Origin: Bacteroidota bacterium
GTDB lineage: Bacteria; Bacteroidota; Bacteroidia; B-17B0; Aurantibacillaceae
DNA length: 64,000 bases
NCBI GenBank assembly: GCA_013697245.1
Contig: JACCXH010000022.1
Coordinates: forward strand, 1 to 64,000
Direction: 5' to 3'
In this document: positions 38,993-60,026 of the stretch, piece by piece
How the letters are laid out: the number at the start of each line of letters is the position of its first letter
How positions within the stretch are numbered: position 1 is the first letter of the stretch
Translations under genes and position numbers: made by a program
The notes under the pieces: generated by a model
Databases searched by the model: none
Told to the model about the DNA's origin: nothing
Seen by the model: the letters and a program-made list of their open reading frames with translations, nothing else

Positions 38993-39087
38993 CGCTATAA
39001 AGGAGAGGGAACTTGATCCTAAATGCTTCTACTTTAGAGAAGGATTTAGGATGAGACTAACAATCCTTAACAACATTCCGCTATAAA
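38993..39087. mobile_element. short palindromic MITE-like element with 9-bp flanking repeat
   Basis: CGCTATAAA is directly repeated at 38993-39001 and 39079-39087. Between them lies a long hairpin: ATCCTAAAT (39016-39024) pairs with ATTTAGGAT (39044-39052), and inside that CTTCT (39026-39030) pairs with AGAAG (39038-39042). Size about 77 bases between the repeats. The direct repeat looks like a target-site duplication; chance is possible since the region is AT-rich. Confidence 0.5.
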
Positions 39088-39459: not shown

Positions 39460-39486
39460 GTCATTCTGAACTTGATTCAGAATCTC
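39460..39486. repeat. REP-like hairpin, left flank of a GIY-YIG gene
   Basis: 27 bases: GTC, stem ATTCTGAA (39463-39470), loop CTTGA, stem TTCAGAAT (39476-39483), CTC. The stem is a perfect 8-bp hairpin. Its inverted counterpart, with compensated stem bases, lies at 39858-39884 beyond the gene. Confidence 0.75.
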
Positions 39487-39503
39487 AGTACTCTTTTATT
39501 TGA

Positions 39504-39794
39504 TCATTCCCAATCTGCTACCAGATCTTTAAAATCGGGGTTATCCCCCTGAATTAATTTGATCTTCCAATCTCTCTTCCAGTTTTTAAGTTGTTTCTCT
39601 CTTCTTATCACTGTTTCAATATCACTTATTATTTCAAAATAAACAAGGCTATGTAAATTGTACCGACTTGTAAATTCGCTTTCATTGTTTTTATGTTGTC
39701 TCAATCTGCTTTCCAAGTCGTTTATAACACCAACGTAAAAAGTTGATGCGCGCTTGTTGGACATAATATAAACAAAAGCATTTGTGAGTTTCAT
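39504..39794 (-). CDS. GIY-YIG family endonuclease-like protein (copy 1)
   Basis: 96 residues from ATG 39794. GIY-YIG core: VYIMSN (8-13) and FYVGV (19-23), then R30 (LESRLRQH) and the ending YFEIISDIETVIRREKQLKN-type helix with REKQLKNWKRDWK. This is the single-domain UPF0213-type, probably cytoplasmic. It is bracketed by two inverted covarying hairpins, as is the second copy at 59610. Catalytic activity not established for this group. Confidence 0.85.
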   Translation of the reverse strand: MKLTNAFVYIMSNKRASTFYVGVINDLESRLRQHKNNESEFTSRYNLHSLVYFEIISDIETVIRREKQLKNWKRDWKIKLIQGDNPDFKDLVADWE

Positions 39795-39857
39795 AAATTT
39801 AATTTATGAAAAAGTAATCATCTAATAAATAAAAATGAAGAAATATTCAAGAGAACT

Positions 39858-39884
39858 GAGATTCCTGCTCAAGGCCGGAATGAC
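39858..39884. repeat. REP-like hairpin, right flank of a GIY-YIG gene
   Basis: Reverse complement reads GTC, ATTCCGGC, CTTGA, GCAGGAAT, CTC, the same architecture as the left-flank hairpin (8-bp stem, conserved CTTGA loop, conserved GTC and CTC edges) but with different stem bases and one mismatched pair (G/A). Orientation is inverted relative to the left copy. It ends four bases before the pyrH stop codon at 39889. Confidence 0.75.
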
Positions 39885-59490: not shown

Positions 59491-59590
59491 CCTTCGATGC
59501 TTCGACTAGCTCAGCATAAACTTTCTCAGGGTGACAAGTACTAGTAATGGTGACTCGTCCGTGTCATGGTGAGCCTGTCGAACCATCGAA
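59491..59590. repeat. REP-like repeats, left flank of the second GIY-YIG gene
   Basis: CTTCGACTAGCTCA (59500), CTCAGGGTGACAAG (59525) and GTCATGGTGAGCCTGTCG (59563) are variants of the CTTCGACAAGCTCA...GTGAC unit seen on the other side of the gene. The last copy runs just before the start region of the gene. Confidence 0.7.
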
Positions 59591-59609: not shown

Positions 59610-59936
59610 ATGTTATACTTTTACATACTAAAATGTTCTGATGAAAGTTATTATGTTGGTGTAACAAACAATGTAGAAAGCCGTTTGTTTCAACATCAGG
59701 AAGGGATTATTGAAACTTGTTACACGTTTTCCAGAAGGCCGCTTGAATTAAAATATTACGAAATAATTGAAGATAATTTACAAGCAATAAAAAGAGAAAA
59801 ACAAATTAAAGGTTGGACACGCGCTAAAAAAGAAGCTTTAATTGCTCAAAATTGGGACAAGTTAATTGAGTTTTCAAAAAATTACAAGATTAGAAACTCA
59901 CAAAATGAGCAAGGCCCTTCGACAAGCTCAGGGTGA
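59610..59936 (+). CDS. GIY-YIG family endonuclease-like protein (copy 2)
   Basis: 108 residues from ATG 59610; an earlier frame through the REP unit (from 59547) is rejected. FYILKCSDESYYVGVTNNVE carries the GIY-YIG signature, with ESRLFQHQEG, EIIEDNLQAIKREKQIKGWT helices. The last residues (GPSTSSG) are encoded by the right-hand REP unit, so the stop is inside the repeat. As for copy 1, function is unknown beyond family; association with REP hairpins is the main clue. Confidence 0.85.
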   Translation: MLYFYILKCSDESYYVGVTNNVESRLFQHQEGIIETCYTFSRRPLELKYYEIIEDNLQAIKREKQIKGWTRAKKEALIAQNWDKLIEFSKNYKIRNSQNEQGPSTSSG

Positions 59937-60026
59937 CAGGCTTGTGTCACCCTGAGCTTGTCGATGTCATGGTGAGTTTGTCGATGTCATGGTGAGCTTG
60001 TCGATGTCATGGTGAGCTTGTCGAAG
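59915..60026. repeat. REP-like inverted and tandem repeats after the GIY-YIG gene
   Basis: TCGACAAGCTCAGGGTGACA (59919-59938) is a perfect 20-bp inverted repeat of 59945-59964 with a six-base loop. From 59946 the 20-base unit recurs in tandem at 59946, 59966, 59986 and 60006 (the last extended to 60026), each beginning GTCA and containing GAGCTTGTCG or GAGTTTGTCG. The first half of the set overlaps the end of the GIY-YIG gene. Confidence 0.85.

Follow-up and report, generated by a model that had tools for sequence, protein, structure and literature searches.

The window, the whole 64,000-nucleotide stretch of DNA analysed here, carries a hairpin-gene-hairpin unit at 39460-39884, placed between two convergent genes. 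At its centre lies a 96-aa GIY-YIG nuclease gene (39504-39794, minus strand; PF01541). The left hairpin, arm type A (39460-39486, plus strand), is 27 nt long and reads GTC-ATTCTGAA-CTTGA-TTCAGAAT-CTC, with its GTC tag outward, an 8-bp stem in which 8/8 positions pair, a CTTGA loop and a CTC tail. The right hairpin, arm type B (39858-39884, minus strand), also 27 nt long with an outward GTC tag and a CTTGA loop, reads GTC-ATTCCGGC-CTTGA-GCAGGAAT-CTC and pairs at 7/8 positions. Taken with the preceding base, the tag is TGTC in the left hairpin and CGTC in the right. The original prediction had described 27-nt hairpins in opposite orientation around a 96-aa GIY-YIG gene, with GTC/CTC edges, CTTGA loops, differing stems and the same numbers of pairs, and all of this is found exactly in the sequence.

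The likeness of the two ends runs inward beyond both hairpins (CTCAGTACTCTT on the left, CTCAGTTCTCTT on the right) and includes a conserved inner extension at 39487-39495 (plus strand, AGTACTCTT) and its counterpart at 39849-39857 (minus strand, AGTTCTCTT). The ends are identical at 29/39 positions, with differences mostly in the hairpin stems; because the likeness continues past the hairpins, the conserved segment at each end can be taken to be about 36-39 bp long. In the 4.44-Mb genome the hairpin pattern GTCATTNNNNNCTTGANNNNGAATCTC has two mismatch-free matches, both in this unit, and four degenerate copies elsewhere bring the total to about six.

The 96-aa protein matches the GIY-YIG family PF01541 with E=5e-15. 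The GIY-YIG catalytic residues are invariant among homologues, and the residues invariant in the family include Y9, Y20, G22, R30, H34, E54, E66 and N85. A structure model (pLDDT 84.5) had as its best structural match the GIY-YIG protein UPF0213 BH0048 (E=2e-4), followed by Slx1 and the UvrC N-domain with weak E-values. Freestanding homing endonucleases of the I-TevI type share the GIY-YIG fold and a patchy distribution, but the window protein, at 96 aa, has no separate DNA-binding domain and is bracketed by its own repeat. No phage homologues were found. A 48% identical GIY-YIG homologue on Planktothrix agardhii plasmid p1 (L246, 1007-1291), with no hairpins detected, sits in a defence island between an MmeI-type restriction enzyme and the DISARM gene drmA.

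Homologues were gathered from a public genome set together with the window's own family, and both sides of each gene were scanned for a GTC-tagged hairpin within 250 bp, with 2050 pseudo-gene positions in the same loci as controls. GTC-tagged hairpins were present on both sides at 49/104 homologous loci, compared with 8/2050 control positions, and were head-to-head at 41/104 and 2/2050, respectively. The hairpin-gene-hairpin layout is common to dozens of relatives in several phyla and is no local chance pattern. Because a scan based on pairing would itself force covariation, we recounted with sequences selected solely by their GTC tag and CTYGW loop. Among the 92 distinct sequences selected in this way, 645/736 cells were paired, whereas 1000 shuffles averaged 429 and reached 467 at most; the relatedness of the sequences inflates counts of this type. 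Despite this inflation, C-G, G-C and T-A pairs are each common at stem position 3, which requires repeated double changes. The original prediction had envisaged tagged hairpins concentrated beside GIY-YIG genes, and this, rather than hairpins widespread without such enrichment, is what the counts give; its suggestion of covarying stems holds for the repeat family.

The flanking repeats were scored as having a 5-nt loop, a 4-nt loop, a 6-nt loop, a 9-bp stem or a tandem-G.A stem, or as none. Repeat class and protein clade are inherited together: mapped on the protein tree, which is poorly resolved (101 columns), repeat class required 14 changes, whereas shuffling gave an average of 47. For 37/101 proteins in the tree there was no repeat belonging to the scanned classes, and a looser scan found other GTC-tagged repeats beside some of these. 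In a GIY-YIG clade whose proteins start M..GGAVYILTN (L096-L109, L177-L189), some members go with a GTC-tagged repeat of another fold, GTCATTGCGAG..GAAGCAATC, which is found in part of the clades scored as none.

Repeats of this kind are familiar from a survey of GTAG- and CGTC-tagged palindromic repeats (BMC Genomics 2013; PMC3733652). In that survey, CGTC-tagged REPs, a superfamily that includes Neisseria dRS3 and Rickettsia RPE-4/RPE-6, have an unpaired CGTC or TGTC tag, an 8-9 bp stem starting with A-T, a 4-5 nt loop and a short tail, usually CCA; they form mostly head-to-head dimers, commonly heterodimers, reach high genomic copy number and, according to the authors, apparently have no dedicated transposase (PMC3733652). 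The window hairpins agree with this description in their tag, in stem and loop lengths and in forming mostly head-to-head dimers, and their GTC tag, 8-bp A-T-led stem and 5-nt loop correspond to the CGTC-2 layout. They share the short tail and the heterodimers as well, but the tail is CTC rather than the usual CCA and, in contrast to the surveyed repeats with no dedicated enzyme, the window dimer has a GIY-YIG gene inside it. The GIY-YIG protein is a candidate for the missing enzyme of CGTC-tagged REPs.

The repeats also occur without the gene. Genomes of the same genus contain gene-less head-to-head dimers of the window's arm types (L150, L151, L153, L157, L160, L168), and in the genome of the window the remaining four copies resemble whole or decayed dimers. 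The start of the left inner extension (AGTACT/AGCACT) is seen again in gene-less dimers. Two decayed dimers of the window's genome (L007 and L008) share a palindrome, CCCGATAGCTATCGGGA, which lies within the second arm or close to it, at about 1570-1600 on the hairpin strand. Dimers of genus g10 and its relatives mostly measure about 56-58 bp, with typical arms ATGCTGAA and ACCCTGAA, and 17/17 complete dimers listed are heterodimers, some of them orthologous to one another. With DNA parameters, a long palindrome is favoured over two hairpins by 16.6 kcal/mol in a hypothetical equal-arm dimer and by 5.2 kcal/mol in an observed heterodimer. This weakening by unequal arms may explain why the stems differ, and the regularity of the heterodimers suggests a design rule whereby differing arms weaken the palindrome that equal arms would form.

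Repeat copies are more numerous in genomes that have a close gene. All 14 genomes with a close gene had at least one repeat copy, compared with 28/73 without a close gene (Mann-Whitney p=1.7e-7, statistics that ignore kinship); inside genera the relation between copy number and a close gene was weaker (p=0.03 and 0.02), with clear exceptions. Under the strict pattern the relatives hold at most 32 repeat copies per genome, and close genes are mostly present as one copy per genome.

The GIY-YIG gene has a patchy distribution, occurring in 36/87 genomes, and whole units are present or absent at the same locus. One such locus is L081, where, between the same flanking sequences, G068 and G071 carry the unit and G080, G084 and G074 lack it; G080 has about 16 bp between the homologous blocks, and at this orthologous locus, the one looked at closely, the relatives without the gene have no leftover dimer. 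At the locus orthologous to the window's own, G034 has a short intergenic stretch with neither unit nor hairpin. Several units occupy shared loci in different species, which indicates that vertical inheritance is common. Neither exact empty sites nor target duplications were seen when a dimer (L168/L160) was compared with G015, G034 and G025, leaving out the G033 row (L191), which is misplaced in the alignment, or when the L081 unit was compared with G080, G084 and G074; divergence of the intergenic sequence hides the exact junctions. At the orthologous pyrH-proximal intergenic junction, unit-less relatives have sequences that end in other GTC-tagged inverted repeats (L171, L172), and this junction may be a hotspot.

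A small nuclease paired with its own recognition repeat is a kind reportedly described in 2025 under the name Ssn, the founder being a GIY-YIG nuclease of N. meningitidis whose family is said, in Nat Commun of that year, to cut specific single-stranded repeats. Searching a plasmid collection by tblastn, we found a 45.5% identical protein in a 2.17-Mb N. gonorrhoeae record that is evidently the chromosome. We take this homologue to be a relative of the N. meningitidis protein and infer its orthology with the published Ssn. It is flanked on both sides by dRS3-type repeats, a setting that putatively links the window gene to the Ssn family. The dRS3 repeat is the CGTC-1 repeat of Neisseria (PMC3733652). 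Repeats likewise bracket the gene of a Sphingobium plasmid homologue, head-to-head. Homology and layout make it most likely that the window gene belongs to the Ssn kind, as a member from the Bacteroidota, and that the CGTC-type repeat is its cognate. As with Ssn, a small GIY-YIG protein goes with a cognate repeat of which multiple copies lie both near the gene and elsewhere in the genome; the window case differs in belonging to the Bacteroidota, in its few genomic repeats (about six) and in that cleavage of single-stranded DNA is putative here. The unit looks like a nuclease paired with its own recognition repeat, and possibly like a minimal mobile element.

We consider it likely that the 96-aa protein is a site-specific nuclease of the Ssn kind and that the flanking hairpins are its cognate CGTC-tagged REP; specificity for single strands is probable by analogy with what is reported for Ssn. 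When a strand is exposed, as lagging-strand template, during repair or in incoming transforming DNA, the repeat would fold, and the protein would bind by reading the GTC tag, which is invariant, and the CTTGA/CTTGT loop while tolerating compensatory changes in the stem. It would then cleave the single-stranded DNA beside the folded hairpin, and might also have a role in copying the repeat, of which the gene-less dimers would be members without the gene. Since two unlike copies of its own repeat enclose the gene head-to-head, gene and target would travel and be lost together.

In layout this arrangement resembles that of RAYT/TnpA-REP systems, in which a gene is bracketed by inverted hairpin repeats that are also present as gene-less doublets with the same arms. 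GIY-YIG nucleases are hydrolytic, without the covalent tyrosine intermediate of RAYTs, so a role like that of RAYT proteins is an analogy in layout and not in chemistry. The hairpins are not RAYT-type REPs either, since their tag is of the CGTC type (TGTC/CGTC) and not GTAG. Membership of the RAYT family is ruled out: the protein is a GIY-YIG hydrolase rather than an HUH tyrosine enzyme, no HUH protein is present here and there is no GTAG tag. Of the comparison with REP/REPIN elements and RAYTs in the original prediction, the layout stands, with a GIY-YIG gene in the RAYT place and gene-less doublets around the genome, whereas the chemistry does not carry over; the function proposed from the sequence is putative.

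The pairing of an Ssn-like nuclease with its cognate repeat might extend further, to an autonomous transposable element whose GIY-YIG protein mobilises both the unit and the gene-less dimers. We regard this as possible, if on balance doubtful. It would account for the many sites at which heterodimers with the arms of the unit lie without a gene, for the patchy distribution and for the gene-carrying unit that G071 has and G080, G084 and G074 lack at an orthologous site. It fits poorly with the lack of target-site duplications and exact empty sites at the compared loci, with the low numbers of repeats and of close genes per genome and with the vertical inheritance indicated by shared loci; moreover, GIY-YIG enzymes have no known covalent DNA intermediate. 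More speculatively, GIY-YIG nucleases could in general supply the mobility that CGTC-tagged REPs have seemed to lack an enzyme for, with autonomous units that move by way of single-stranded DNA and need neither an HUH nor a DDE transposase, and with the 56-58-bp heterodimers as miniature derivatives. CGTC-tagged REPs are found in several phyla and reportedly lack an enzyme, and the co-occurrence of repeat class and protein clade yields a list of testable enzyme/target pairs with which to ask if a nuclease that works by hydrolysis is able to spread hairpin repeats.

Alternatively, the gene may have homed, by cutting an existing gene-less dimer and being copied into it through recombination. Its position between two dimer arms suits such a history, in which the gene-less dimers would naturally serve as empty sites, but the missing leftover dimer in gene-less relatives at the closely examined locus argues against it, and we think homing improbable. 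It is similarly improbable that a different transposase, such as one of the IS200/IS605 type, moves the repeats in trans and that the nuclease uses them just as targets. In some REP-rich genomes no close GIY-YIG gene was detected, and the 2013 survey (PMC3733652) proposed that other transposases may mobilise CGTC REPs; yet it did not see CGTC repeats as regular flanks of any transposase gene, whereas here they flank GIY-YIG genes. It is extremely improbable that the hairpins are ordinary terminators with a nuclease beside them by coincidence. Although the space between convergent genes is a usual place for terminators and REPs, the unpaired tag and the loop are conserved, the orientation is head-to-head and the enrichment at GIY-YIG genes is strong in several phyla; coincidence is ruled out by that enrichment.

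Another, distant GIY-YIG gene of the window, at 59610-59936 on the plus strand, encodes 108 aa that are 42% identical over 77 aa to the 96-aa protein. Its repeats are of a class unlike the hairpins at 39460-39884, being GTC-tagged with tandem G.A stem mismatches (GTCACCCTGAGCTTGTCGAAGGG). The upstream repeat, of the tandem-G.A stem class, lies at 59563-59590 (plus strand, GTCATGGTGAGCCTGTCGAACCAT) and the downstream repeat at 59914-59937 (minus strand, GTCACCCTGAGCTTGTCGAAGGGC), where it overlaps the stop codon of the gene and is followed by more tandem copies to about 60024. A stretch of ~35 bp at 39026-39060, upstream of a thioredoxin-like gene, is repeated in the genome (C30, C6, C53) and belongs to a separate repeat family.
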